From Paenirhizobium naphthalenivorans (GTDB lineage Bacteria; Pseudomonadota; Alphaproteobacteria; Rhizobiales; Rhizobiaceae), in NCBI RefSeq assembly GCF_007992095.1, contig NZ_BJZP01000004.1:124001-188000 (forward strand): a stretch of DNA of 64,000 bases, written 5' to 3'. Position 1 is the first letter of the stretch, and every line of letters begins with the position of its first letter. Below, in pieces: positions 39,301 through 44,106 of the stretch. The position numbers and the translations under genes were made by a program. The notes beneath the pieces were generated by a model. It searched no databases, was not told where the DNA came from, and saw only the letters and a program-made list of their open reading frames with translations.

Positions 39301-41238
39301 ATGAAGAAGAGCTTTGAACAGGCGCTTAAGGAATATCAGGCCGGGCGGCTGCCCGAGGCGCTGAAGTTTGCCGAAAGGGCGCTCAAGGCGGGCGGGGCGA
39401 ACCATCCGGGCCTTCTGGCGCTGATCGGCAATATTCGCTTCAAGTCTGGCGATCGTGCGGCCGCCGCCGAGGCCTTTGCCCGCGCGGCGGAGAAGGCCGA
39501 CGACAAGGCGGCCGCCGGCTATCTTAAGCTTGCCGTGACGCTTGCCCAGGCAGCCGGCCTGACCGACCTTATTCTGTCGGTTGGTGCGCGCGCGGTGAAA
39601 CTCAACCCGGCCGATCCGGAGTTGGCCTTCACGGTCGCCAGCGCCTTTTTCAGTCGGGGCCATTGGGGCGAGATGACGCCGATGCTTGATCGGCTCGATC
39701 GCCGCAATGATCGGCACATGGCACTGATCGTCAATCACCACCGGCTGCTGGGAAAGTTCGAGGCGCTCTGGGCAGAGCTTGACAAGGGGCTGGCTTCCAA
39801 GCCTGACGACTGGTTCCTGAATGTCTCGAAGTTCGCCGTCGCCCGAGAGGTGCTCGACTTTCCCACCATCGAGCGCCACGCGGCGCTGATGCGCGCGCCC
39901 GATGCGCCGTTCGCAGCGGGCCTGCTGGCCCGCGAGCCAGCGCTCGGCCGCATCCTCTGGTCGGACGATGAGGCGCTCAACGCCCGGCCGACCCAGGAAA
40001 CCCCGAGCTATGCCGCGACGCTACCGTCCGCCACCGGCCGCACGCGTCGGGCCTTCTCCGCGCCCGGCGAGAAGATCCGTATCGGTTATCTGTCGAATGA
40101 TTTTCATGGTCATGCGACGATGACGCTGTTTCTCGAGGCGCTGGCCACCCATGATCTGGAACGCTTCGACGTGACGCTGTTCTGCTATACGGAGCGCCAC
40201 GCGGCGGCCCAGCAGGCGGCCTGGCCGGAGCATTTGCGCCAGCTCGTCGTGCCAGTCGGCCATCTCTCCGATGCCGATGCGGCCGCGCTGATCTCGGAGC
40301 GTAGGATCGACATCCTGGTCGACCTCAAGGGCCATACGATGGGTGCCCGTCTCGGCATCGTCAATCTCTCCGACGCACCGGTGAAGGCCACGTTTCTCGG
40401 CTTTCCGGGCTCGGTCACTGGTATCGACCTCGATTATGCGATCACCGATCCGATCGTCACGCCGGATACCAGCAAGCCCTTCTTCGCCGAAAAGCTGTGC
40501 CGCCTGCCGGAGACCTACCAGCCGAACAATTGCCGCACGCGTGCGCGACCGCAGCCGATGGAGCGCGCGGCGGCGGGCTTGCCCGAGGACGCCTTCGTCT
40601 TCGCCTCGTTCAACGCCGCCTATAAGATCACTCCCCGCACGCTGGCGCTCTGGGCCGAGGTGCTGCGCGCCGAACCCGATTCGGTCCTCTGGATCCTGTG
40701 CCGCCCGGCACTTGCCCGGAGGAACCTGACTGAGGCGATGATGGCGCACGGTGTCGCGGCCTCGCGGCTGATCTTCGCCGACAATGTGCCCTATCCCGCG
40801 CATGTGAGTCGAATTCCGCTCGCCGATCTGGCGCTGGATACGTTTCCCTGCAACGGTCACACGACGACCTCCGACATGCTGTGGGCCGGGCTGCCGGTGC
40901 TGACCGCGCCGGGAACGGCCTTTGCCGGCCGCGTCTCCGCAAGCCTGCTTTCGGCGCTCGGTCTGCCGGAACTGATCACCGAAAGCGATGCCGCCTTTGT
41001 CGAAGAGGCGGTCCGCCTGGCACGCGACCCCTACGCGCTCACGGCCCTGCGCGCGCGGCTCGATGAGGCCCGCGCTCGTGCGCCGCTGTTCGACAACGAG
41101 CGTTTCGCCCATCATCTCGAACGGGCTTTCGAGATGATGGCCGACCGGGCGAGGGCAGGGCTTGCCCCAGACCATATCGACGTCGAGGCGCTGCCGGCGC
41201 GGACCGCCCCCTTCATCAGCGACGCGCCTGTGGGATGA
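39301..41238 (+). CDS. SPINDLY-type O-GlcNAc transferase with TPR domain
   Basis: The 645-residue protein has an N-terminal tetratricopeptide part (about 1-170, e.g. ALKEYQAGRLPEALKFAERAL) and a C-terminal glycosyltransferase family 41 domain. In that domain IRIGYLSNDFHGHA is the usual catalytic-domain opening, and LVDLKGHTMGARLGI, FLGFPGSVTG, FASFNAAYKITP and CNGHTTTSDMLWAGLPVLT follow in family order. Relatives transfer GlcNAc or related sugars to Ser/Thr. The bacterial targets are unknown; surface proteins such as flagellin are possible. ATG 39301 has GGAGG nine bases upstream, better than the ATG at 39286. Confidence 0.93.
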   Translation: MKKSFEQALKEYQAGRLPEALKFAERALKAGGANHPGLLALIGNIRFKSGDRAAAAEAFARAAEKADDKAAAGYLKLAVTLAQAAGLTDLILSVGARAVKLNPADPELAFTVASAFFSRGHWGEMTPMLDRLDRRNDRHMALIVNHHRLLGKFEALWAELDKGLASKPDDWFLNVSKFAVAREVLDFPTIERHAALMRAPDAPFAAGLLAREPALGRILWSDDEALNARPTQETPSYAATLPSATGRTRRAFSAPGEKIRIGYLSNDFHGHATMTLFLEALATHDLERFDVTLFCYTERHAAAQQAAWPEHLRQLVVPVGHLSDADAAALISERRIDILVDLKGHTMGARLGIVNLSDAPVKATFLGFPGSVTGIDLDYAITDPIVTPDTSKPFFAEKLCRLPETYQPNNCRTRARPQPMERAAAGLPEDAFVFASFNAAYKITPRTLALWAEVLRAEPDSVLWILCRPALARRNLTEAMMAHGVAASRLIFADNVPYPAHVSRIPLADLALDTFPCNGHTTTSDMLWAGLPVLTAPGTAFAGRVSASLLSALGLPELITESDAAFVEEAVRLARDPYALTALRARLDEARARAPLFDNERFAHHLERAFEMMADRARAGLAPDHIDVEALPARTAPFISDAPVG

Positions 41239-41307
41239 CCCCTTGAAACACACACCGTCGACGCCCATCTCTTGTTCAGTGTCAACGAACGAAAGGGAGG
41301 TGATCGA

Positions 41308-41382
41308 ATGTCTAATGAGATTTCGGTTTGCATGACGGGCTTGGCGAAGACGATGGTCTCGACGGGGCAGCCCTCGGCCTGA
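41308..41382 (+). CDS. Candidate 24-residue small protein or leader peptide
   Basis: ATG TCT AAT GAG opens a 24-codon frame, MSNEISVCMTGLAKTMVSTG plus QPSA, ending at TGA 41380. GGAGGTGATC at 41296-41305 matches ten bases of the anti-Shine-Dalgarno end of 16S rRNA, with seven bases between GGAGG and ATG. This is the strongest ribosome binding site in the window. A structured 3' region and a terminator follow, so the short transcript would end before asparaginase. It may be a small protein, a dual-function RNA, or a leader peptide controlling the asparaginase gene. No hydrophobic span is present. I recognise no family. Confidence 0.5.
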   Translation: MSNEISVCMTGLAKTMVSTGQPSA

Positions 41383-41394
41383 CCTCGCCTTGCT

Positions 41395-41432
41395 ACGGAT
41401 CGCGCCGCGTGATCCGGGTCCGTTATGGGACC
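41395..41432 (+). ncRNA. Structured 3' part of the short transcript
   Basis: Two stems precede the terminator: CGGATC and GATCCG (41396-41401 and 41410-41415 approximately) and then GGTCC and GGACC (around 41417-41432). With the terminator they make three consecutive hairpins after the small ORF. This is the layout of a stable small RNA or an attenuator. Confidence 0.4.
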
Positions 41433-41442
41433 AGACTCATGG

Positions 41443-41470
41443 AAGGGTCGCCTCGTGCGGCCCTTTTTTG
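41443..41470 (+). terminator. Strong terminator before the asparaginase gene
   Basis: AGGGTCGC (41444-41451) and GCGGCCCT (41457-41464) form an eight-pair stem with one G-T pair and a CTCGT loop. TTTTTT follows. It lies 80 bases before the asparaginase start and more than 200 bases after the O-GlcNAc transferase stop. Confidence 0.85.
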
Positions 41471-41543: not shown

Positions 41544-42551
41544 ATGCAGAACCCCGTCACTGTCGAAGTCACCCGCGGCAAACTTGTCGAGAGCCGCCAC
41601 CGGGGCCTTGCCGTGGTGGTCGATGGCGACGGCAAGGTGGTTTTCTCCGCCGGCAACATCGAGGCCGCGACCTTTCCGCGCTCCGCCTGCAAGGCGATGC
41701 AGGCGCTGCCGCTCGTCGAGAGCGGCGCGGCCGACGCCTATGGCTTCGGGCAAAAGGAGCTGGCGCTCGCCTGCTCGTCGCATTCCGGCGAGGATGAACA
41801 TGTGGCGCTCGCCGCCTCGATGTTGAAGCGGGCCGGCCGCGACGAGAGCGTGCTCGAATGCGGCGCCCACTGGTCGTTCGAGCAGCCGGTGCTGATCCAT
41901 CAGGCGCGCACGCTGGAAAAGCCGACGGCGCTGCATAACAATTGCTCCGGCAAGCATGCCGGTTTCGTCTGCGCCTGCTGTCATTCGGGCGAGGACCCGC
42001 GCGGCTATGCCGGCTATGACCACCCGCTTCAGGCGGAAATCCGCGGAATCATGGAGGTTCTCACCGGCACCCCGCTGTCGCGTGACAATTGCGGTACCGA
42101 TGGGTGTTCGATTCCGACCTATGCCGTGCCGCTCGTTGCGCTCGCCCGCGGGTTCGGCAAGATGGCGACCGGCAAGGGGCTTGAACCGGTCCGCGCTGCC
42201 GCTGCCCGCCGCCTGATCGAGGCCTGCATGGCCGAGCCCTTCTATGTCGCCGGCACTAGGCGTTTCTGCACCCGGCTGATGCAGGTGGCGCCCGGCAAGA
42301 TCTTTGCCAAGACCGGCGCCGAGGGCGTCTTCTGCGCCCTGCTGCCGGAACTGGGTCTTTCCTTCGCCGTCAAGGCCGAGGACGGCGCGAGCCGCGCCGC
42401 CGAATCGATGATCGCGGCGCTTCTCGCCCGCTTCTTCGAAGAGGATAGCCCCGAGCGGTCGGCGCTGATGGCCATGGCGAACCACTCCATGCGCAACTGG
42501 AACGGCCTGCACGTCGGCGACGTGCGGGTCACCGACGTGCTGTTTTCCTGA
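41544..42551 (+). CDS. L-asparaginase, class 3 (Rhizobium etli type)
   Basis: This 335-residue cytosolic enzyme hydrolyses asparagine to aspartate and ammonia. It belongs to the serine-hydrolase-like class 3 family described for R. etli rather than the EcAII type. The residues known from that family are here with a shift of one: Ser47 and Lys50 in RSACK, Ser79 in CSSHS, and the zinc ligands Cys134, Lys137 (NNCSGKH) and Cys188 (DNCGTDGCS). ATG 41544 is preceded by GGAAAGG. It lies downstream of a terminated short transcript that could attenuate its expression. Confidence 0.93.
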   Translation: MQNPVTVEVTRGKLVESRHRGLAVVVDGDGKVVFSAGNIEAATFPRSACKAMQALPLVESGAADAYGFGQKELALACSSHSGEDEHVALAASMLKRAGRDESVLECGAHWSFEQPVLIHQARTLEKPTALHNNCSGKHAGFVCACCHSGEDPRGYAGYDHPLQAEIRGIMEVLTGTPLSRDNCGTDGCSIPTYAVPLVALARGFGKMATGKGLEPVRAAAARRLIEACMAEPFYVAGTRRFCTRLMQVAPGKIFAKTGAEGVFCALLPELGLSFAVKAEDGASRAAESMIAALLARFFEEDSPERSALMAMANHSMRNWNGLHVGDVRVTDVLFS

Positions 42552-43803: not shown

Positions 43804-44106
43804 GAAAGGGATCCTCCGATTGAGCCCCGGAGGCTAACGGTTGGATGTGCCAATGAAAAGCCGCGCCTCCTTGATCCGCGCAGGAATTTCGATGATGTCG
43901 GCGGCGAGAGGCAACATTGACTTCGCGGTGCGAAAATCTTAGTTCAGAGAAACGGGTCAGCAGTTCACCCAGGCGTCACCGCCCCGAGAAGGGGAGCTAA
44001 ACCTGTCTTTCCCTGAGAACCGACAGCCACTTTTTTCGTGCCTGGTCGGAAGACGGTGACCACCGGCCTTTCTGCTTTGCCAGGGCACGATGTCGAGGAA
44101 GTGACG
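43804..44106. other. Divergent spacer between GST and DUF2087 genes
   Basis: These 303 bases hold promoters for both genes. I see no gene. A small inverted repeat (CCCCGAGAAGGGG, about 43982-43994) is present. Confidence 0.4.

Follow-up and report, generated by a model that had tools for sequence, protein, structure and literature searches.

Layout of the locus

The window analyzed in this study is a 64,000-nucleotide stretch of the Paenirhizobium naphthalenivorans genome (contig NZ_BJZP01000004.1, positions 124,001 to 188,000). Within it, a gene encoding an OGT-like glycosyltransferase (Pfam Glyco_transf_41) ends at position 41238 and the asparaginase II gene (PF06089) starts at 41544, leaving a gap of 305 bases. 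Sequence analysis revealed that positions 41281–41470 make up a discrete element with promoter-like boxes, an extended Shine-Dalgarno (SD), a 24-codon ORF, hairpins and a terminator. The features are as follows.

41243–41248, + strand: −35-like box TTGAAA, aligning with CCTTG, which is conserved across 30 genus loci
41266–41271, + strand: putative −10-like box CATCTC, 17 nt after the −35-like box, aligned with CTACCT of the genus; a weak match
41281–41470, + strand: predicted transcript (the element), from about CAACG to the terminator; matched by covariance model R1 over 1–191 of its 191 positions, E 3.7e-24
41291–41305, + strand: extended SD GAAAGGGAGGTGATC
41308–41382, + strand: 24-codon ORF MSNEISVCMTGLAKTMVSTGQPSA plus TGA, with one Asn
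41315–41319, + strand: 5′ strand of P1, ATGAG (ORF codons 3–4), pairing with 41436–41440; covariation in relatives
41363–41376, + strand: P2 hairpin CGGGG-CAGC-CCTCG, just 5′ of the stop codon
41382–41394, + strand: ACCTCGCCTTGCT, able to pair with the SD; in register in 16 genus loci
41396–41416, + strand: hairpin CGGATC...GATCCG, from the sequence and the genus consensus fold
41417–41432, + strand: hairpin GGTCC...GGACC, from the sequence and the genus consensus fold
41436–41440, + strand: 3′ strand of P1, CTCAT, immediately 5′ of the terminator stem
41441–41470, + strand: intrinsic terminator with an 11-pair stem and T6, from the sequence and a terminator scan

A sequence-only reading of this DNA had correctly described the site GGAGGTGATC at 41296–41305, the ORF at 41308–41382 with its 24 codons and single Asn, and the 305-base gap; the distance from GGAGG to the ATG at 41308 is 7 nt. 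The strong terminator that it proposed is present, but the stem lies at 41441–41467, two bases earlier than had been given, with a T tract at 41464–41469. Exact GGAGGTGATC-N1-8-ATG sites occur six times in the 4.95-Mb genome and never in the reversed control. The 189-nt RNA folds with a z of −3.0, and only 1 of 200 dinucleotide shuffles folds equally well. In the genus, a promoter-like pair CCTTG-N-CTACCT is kept upstream of the element, with the predicted transcript start near CAACG. A generic sigma-70 promoter scan of the window returned none at the −35-like and −10-like boxes, which were placed by means of the genus alignment. The element carries a terminator of its own and probably a promoter as well. 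Elsewhere in the window, at 43954–44008 on the + strand, there is a COG3860 cis-regulatory RNA (RF02940) scoring 69.6 bits, above its cut-off.

A branch of the CC2171 RNA family

The sequence-only reading had named a lack of conservation in close relatives as a refuting result, and this check did not refute it. When 60 genomes were searched at the DNA level, the element turned up in 35 of 36 genomes of the genus (counting the own genome), the peptide being weakly conserved; the lone genome of the genus that lacks it (G004) is 66% complete, and the sole match outside the genus covers the terminator only. Loci were obtained from 30 of these 35 genomes, and their alignment, judged by eye, has no indel within the ORF and many 3′ of the stop codon.

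The Rfam family CC2171 (RF01867) matches the element at 41283–41464 with 22 bits (E 0.017 in 701 bases), short of the curated cut-off of 75 bits, and stricter genome scans of the own genome gave no RF01867 match. At E≤0.01, RF01867 matches were found in 165 of 297 genomes of the order (26 over the cut-off) and in 68 of 289 genomes of the class (9 over the cut-off). It was also matched in 2 of 14 control genomes, namely Caulobacter vibrioides and Deinobacterium chartae, the latter being to our mind a chance match. Covariance model R1 was built from 19 loci, none of them labeled as the genus of the window and 12 of them RF01867 matches with E from 8.7e-4 to 2.3e-9. With R1, the element is the only match in the 64-kb window up to E 10, and the whole genome yields one significant match (E 2.9e-22; next 2.4). 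In the family, 91 of 121 genomes and 84 of 109 genera have one match apiece, whereas the remaining 30 genomes gave no match under the strict filters; relatives bearing the element include Sinorhizobium, Rhizobium and Shinella. Because a model built from intermediates finds the element, its homology to CC2171 is secure despite the low RF01867 score, and by sequence it is securely a branch of this family.

Furthermore, the 5′ pattern GAAAGGAGGTGATCCNRTGTC was found in at least 119 stretches of named genomes; among the 119 matches listed, 115 bear alphaproteobacterial names and 4 are labeled merely Proteobacteria/Pseudomonadota. Allowing at most two mismatches, the pattern is present in 69 of 289 genomes of the class, compared with 1 of 289 for the reversed control. 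A draw from the phylum gave 30 of 51 genomes of the class against 4 of 149 others, those four all with two mismatches. Judged by these searches, the CC2171-type element occurs Alphaproteobacteria-wide. Four genomes of other families (G600, G607, G343 and G505) have two or three RF01867 matches each, the extra ones weak, and these are possible paralogues.

The accessible passages of the open-licence literature on CC2171/RF01867 report no ORF. In the part of the Rfam 15 description consulted here, RF01867 is among the families that gained one covarying pair (PMC11701678). For MH_s33 of M. huakuii, annotated as RF01867, the excerpt available gives a sequenced product of 215 nt against 397 nt predicted (PMC5596092).

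Neighboring genes

In the window, asparaginase begins 161 nt past the ORF stop codon and 73 nt past the terminator, and the sequence-only reading had accordingly considered a leader that attenuates this gene. Asparaginase follows the element, with no DUF3750 in between, in 6 of 30 genus loci (L006, L008, L010, L013, L016 and L018). Against this, a convergent DUF3750 gene separates the element from asparaginase in 15 of 30, and nine more have no asparaginase within the flank examined (DUF3750 alone in one, neither gene in eight), so that the proposal lost its footing within the genus itself. The DUF3750 assignment was made on L025 (Pfam E 6e-44), and the S. meliloti locus is annotated likewise. 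Since the close relatives L007–L010 and L006 differ in whether DUF3750 or asparaginase lies 3′ of the element, this interval has been rearranged over short times.

Other clades have other neighbors, for which the Pfam names DUF188, RF-1-domain and Vut_1 come from one member of each cluster. A DUF188 (YaiI/YqxD) cluster lies near the element in 18 loci, 2 of them with the gene on the opposite strand and 3 with it overlapping the start as judged by ORF ends; in the other 13 (L048, L059, L060, L061, L063, L065, L071, L072, L086, L087, L089, L136 and L138) a DUF188-type gene is downstream on the same strand. These 13 loci belong to the order of the window and to other families of the class (Pfam was run on L060 alone). 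An RF-1-domain cluster accounts for 9 loci, 8 of them downstream and Rhodobacteraceae-type. In such loci the element sits between a Vut_1-type gene and a same-strand RF-1-domain (ArfB-like ribosome-rescue) gene, which is adjacent in L122, L125, L127, L139 and L174 and about 800 bases on in L115, L134 and L141; the arrangement is suggestive, not universal. An aminotransferase-like cluster, named by eye, comprises 9 Sphingomonadales-type loci, and the asparaginase cluster 19 loci.

We looked for a shared downstream gene that the element might lead, and found none common to all clades; nor was there the conserved co-directional downstream gene expected of an amino-acid attenuator. As neighbors differ between clades, a cis role on one downstream gene is unlikely, and an asparaginase-attenuating leader in particular is very hard to credit.

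ORF length, frame and translation

The ORF is confined to a narrow range of lengths, and within clades its length hardly varies. Among 109 loci from the RF01867 and DNA searches (omitting L001–L005, of which L001 duplicates L006 and the others are weak own-genome matches), the ORF has 18–31 codons in 108 and 23–25 in 83, while the other two frames from the same start point have 18–31 codons in only 8 and 13. The loci fetched by the 5′ pattern were not selected for anything 3′ of TGTC. Among the 119 listed, 116 have 14–31 codons: 50 have exactly 18, most of them assigned by their peptides to Sphingomonadales (MSHGSA...) and Rhodobacteraceae (MSRVILERGVGT...), 7 have 14 (Bradyrhizobium-type) and 58 have 19–26, with lengths of 31, 36, 59 and 6 found once each. 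The 6-codon case, L126, sits at the end of the available DNA, where the ORF is cut off. For the first 80 listed, 14–31 codons were counted in 78, against 18 and 19 in the other frames; tests beyond the ORF used these 80, and the remaining 39 were counted for ORF length alone. In the family, all 40 loci fetched have an ORF of 21–25 codons, and a count of 22–26 codons gave 37 of 40, compared with 2 and 3 for the other frames. Because the loci share ancestry and the sets partly overlap, L212 and L224 being apparently the same contigs as L080 and L067, the counts are not independent.

The stop codon varies at a fixed place, both in the family set (TGA 24, TAA 8, TAG 8) and in the Rhodobacteraceae set (TAG 7, TGA 3, TAA 2). 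This argument comes from the relatives, since the genus has TGA in 30 of 30. By sequence comparison, the start codon, SD, frame and ORF length are conserved in the genus, family and class. A classical base-pairing sRNA with an incidental ORF, which is the current Rfam type, would fit the filing of RF01867 as an sRNA, the independent terminator and the structured RNA. It would leave without a reason the conserved start codon, frame and length, the stop position that is kept while the stop codon changes in relatives, and the match to a known small protein described below, and we regard it as quite improbable.

Two longer ORFs behind the same SD and start, L186 (59 codons) and L207 (36 codons), are either family outliers or ordinary genes sharing the SD. 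The Bradyrhizobium-type loci L070, L155, L165, L169, L173, L191, L211 and L216 have just 14 codons, e.g., MSYLKRCHLAGIAR; the ORF of L070 contains UCACCUC, complementary to the SD.

The S. meliloti homolog encodes MSNEISDLVMDMGEVKESRQPSA, a 23-aa peptide with a pI of 4.18, and precedes DUF3750 and asparaginase. According to the portions of the report at hand, the S. meliloti small protein SEP1 has 23 aa and a pI of 4.18, is conserved in Rhizobiaceae, is translated with the highest efficiency among 54 high-confidence non-annotated sORFs, and was detected as a tagged fusion on a Western blot and by one mass spectrum (PMC10117765). The two agree in length, pI and Rhizobiaceae range (the element being found in 91 of 121 family genomes), and a pI of 4.18 occurs in about 0.2% of random 23-mers. 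In all likelihood the S. meliloti homolog is SEP1, a match made from length, pI and taxonomic range rather than coordinates. In Caulobacter, as far as the available text goes, most ncRNAs are described as untranslated and two earlier ones as translated (PMC4117421). Translation of the element is strongly indicated by the conserved start codon, SD, frame and length together with the SEP1 match. Of the small-protein mRNA or dual-function sRNA that the sequence-only reading had envisaged, it is the translation side that has been borne out on these grounds.

Shine-Dalgarno and RNA structure

The search for the 16S 3′ end in the own genome and in 5 (near-)complete genomes of the genus did not find it, perhaps because it is missing or masked there; GGCTGGATCACCTCCTTTC is present in 1 of 7 other genomes tried. 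Against what we take to be the 16S tail sequence, the SD of the window has 10 consecutive complementary bases, as do 28 of 30 genus loci. Outside the genus, at least 15 consecutive bases are complementary to the same assumed tail in 94 of 119 loci not fetched by the SD pattern, and the 80 pattern loci have such a complement by construction of the pattern. Complementarity on this scale might point to a decoy or 30S-docking RNA, whose 16S-tail complement titrates or parks small subunits and whose ORF lets them leave, and the translation efficiency of SEP1, given as the highest of 54 sORFs in the sections seen (PMC10117765), would agree with it. Such a decoy is nevertheless improbable: the complement is 10 bases long in 28 of 30 loci of the window's genus, and P1, P2 and the fixed ORF length would go unexplained.

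P1 pairs ORF codons 3–5 with the bases just 5′ of the terminator. It is AUGAG/CUCAU, 5 bp, in the window, CAUUGUC/GACAAUG in the MSHC clade, and GUGGGAU/AUUCCAC, CGAGAU/AUCUCG and others elsewhere. In alignment A3, consisting of 19 of 27 candidates picked by eye (L100, L104, L110, L112, L113, L114, L123 and L171 were dropped), 87.1% of the P1 cells pair and 6 of 7 pairs are doubly changed, a level that none of 500 shuffles and no slid version attained. Of the 80 pattern loci, 57 entered a comparison of all windows (23 were skipped), and P1 outranked every other pairing in 34 of them, compared with 2–7 of 57 for four control ORF segments; the best pairing was counted as lying elsewhere in 25 of 57. 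In the other set, P1 ranked first in 69 of 95 loci (14 skipped), and re-pairing the P1 partners across 92 loci with distinct 5′ segments gave a permutation z of −12. Within the genus alignment, P1 is 100% paired with no double changes and is thus uninformative there. The P1 and SD tests left out loci with no terminator by scan, and the scan found none in 36 of 189 loci.

P2 is a hairpin with a CAG/CAA loop, located at the ORF end in MSS-type loci and in the genus, and just 3′ of the stop codon in the Rhodobacteraceae set. Its stem has at least 6 bp in 15 of 27 MSS loci (1.5% of shuffles) and in 5 of 12 Rhodobacteraceae-type loci (0.2%); in the genus such a stem occurs in 0 of 26 loci, the mean stem being 4.9 against 1.15 in shuffles. 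The spacing between the ATG and the P2 loop takes one of three values (54, 57 or 60 nt) in 88 of 91 P2-bearing loci, and 11 more loci have no P2. In L080, L275 and L276, P2 is retained in a frame other than that of the usual Gln codon, and the ORF there is still 21–24 codons long. We also considered P2 with a CAG/CAA loop as a universal feature and rejected it, as it does not rise above shuffles in the MSHC/MSDR and Sphingomonadales-type sets.

The stretch 3′ of the ORF that is able to pair with the SD is in register in 16 genus loci, where 91.7% of cells are paired with no double changes; in the window itself, the SD pairing is no better than in shuffles (47% as good). Pairing at p≤0.05 was seen in 17 of 29 genus, 14 of 69 MSHx/MSDx, 5 of 12 Rhodobacteraceae-type, 4 of 16 MSSx, 6 of 18 other and 0 of 9 Sphingomonadales-type loci. 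The pairing was thus rejected as universal and holds clade-wise only. In the clade consensus folds, four of five sets place the SD in a 3-bp hairpin, and the Rhodobacteraceae set places it within a longer helix.

Constraint on the peptide

Normalized N/S was computed from pairwise single-change codons, with kinship ignored and the loci not independent. It is 0.64 for the genus (0.49 for codons 6–19), 0.71 for the Rhodobacteraceae set, 1.01 for the Sphingomonadales set (codons 5–17), and 0.81 and 1.56 for two family sets. The pI of 40 family peptides ranges from 4.05 to 11.71. Strong purifying selection on the peptide is unsupported at N/S values of 0.49 to 1.56; these values suggest a weakly constrained peptide, near-neutral in several clades, with an amino-acid constraint above zero. 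NCBIfam and Pfam hold no family for the two peptides tried (those of the window and L036), and no run of regulatory codons was seen by eye in the listed peptides.

These values bear directly on a plain small mRNA, in which the 14–25-aa peptide is the working product and the RNA structure merely tunes its translation. In its favor, the element is very likely translated in S. meliloti as SEP1, for which the consulted parts of the report give a tagged-fusion Western blot and one spectrum (PMC10117765), the frame is kept to P2 in 88 of 91 loci, N/S is below 1 in the genus (0.64) and in Rhodobacteraceae (0.71), and there are clade-specific peptide motifs. It is hard to reconcile, however, with the N/S values of 1.01 (Sphingomonadales) and 1.56 (one family set), with the spread of pI, with peptides that differ between orders on the same RNA layout, and with L275, L276 and L080, which keep the hairpin although the frame across it differs. 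We consider this account unlikely, and the best explanation is that selection mainly keeps the RNA structure and the act and length of translation, and the peptide sequence loosely.

A putative model for the element

Starting from a discrete and conserved element that, at the level of sequence, has P1 in relatives, P2 and a constrained ORF length, we propose a translation-gated riboregulator, that is, a stand-alone translated RNA of the CC2171 type whose fold would be gated by the ribosome. We put this reading, including its putative switch, at about 50%. Initially, the ribosome would dock on the long SD, read the ORF of fixed length (24 codons here) and terminate near P2. Initiation would have to open P1, which joins ORF codons 3–5 to the pre-terminator bases, and a ribosome at the stop codon would cover P2; from these two effects we infer that the fold is gated by the ribosome. 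In some clades, the anti-SD stretch might compete with the ribosome for the SD. Ribosome traffic would in this way set the RNA fold, and hence RNA stability or an action in trans.

More tentatively, the translated ORF may serve as a timer or gate, not as a coding region, and the RNA may report translation capacity Alphaproteobacteria-wide. Docking on a near-perfect complement of the 16S tail, 14–25 near-free codons and termination at a fixed place would then jointly set the fold. As part of the same tentative proposal, the CC2171 'sRNA' and the SEP1 'small protein' would be two names for one element.

An RNA family that had been put aside as a non-coding Caulobacter sRNA proves to be Alphaproteobacteria-wide. 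Its frame is of nearly constant length, and among its members is very probably the most efficiently translated new small ORF of S. meliloti. Since the fold and the ORF length are kept while the peptide changes, translation itself may count for more than its product. The element enables a direct test, in laboratory species that are safe and easy to handle, of whether the act of translation, and not a peptide or base pairing, can be a conserved function of a bacterial RNA.

Comparison with known systems

Dual-function sRNAs of the Spot 42/SgrS type resemble the element in combining an RNA with a short peptide, and have known targets for both the peptide and base pairing. The rnTrpL/peTrpL of S. 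meliloti likewise has a short translated ORF in a small RNA; as described in the excerpts used, it is leaderless and lies in the trpE 5′-UTR, whereas the element has a long SD and no common downstream gene (PMC10117765). SEP1 is presented in those excerpts as a small protein, with neither an RNA family nor a structure attached (PMC10117765). CC2171 (RF01867), linked to the window via intermediate sequences, shares with it the 5′ end, the position of the start codon, the P1 layout and a GGAAGGG-type terminator; the window differs in having another peptide, a shorter P1, the CAG-loop hairpin P2 and an altered SD. Rfam files CC2171 as a non-coding sRNA, whereas the loci compared here keep both the length and the frame of the ORF.
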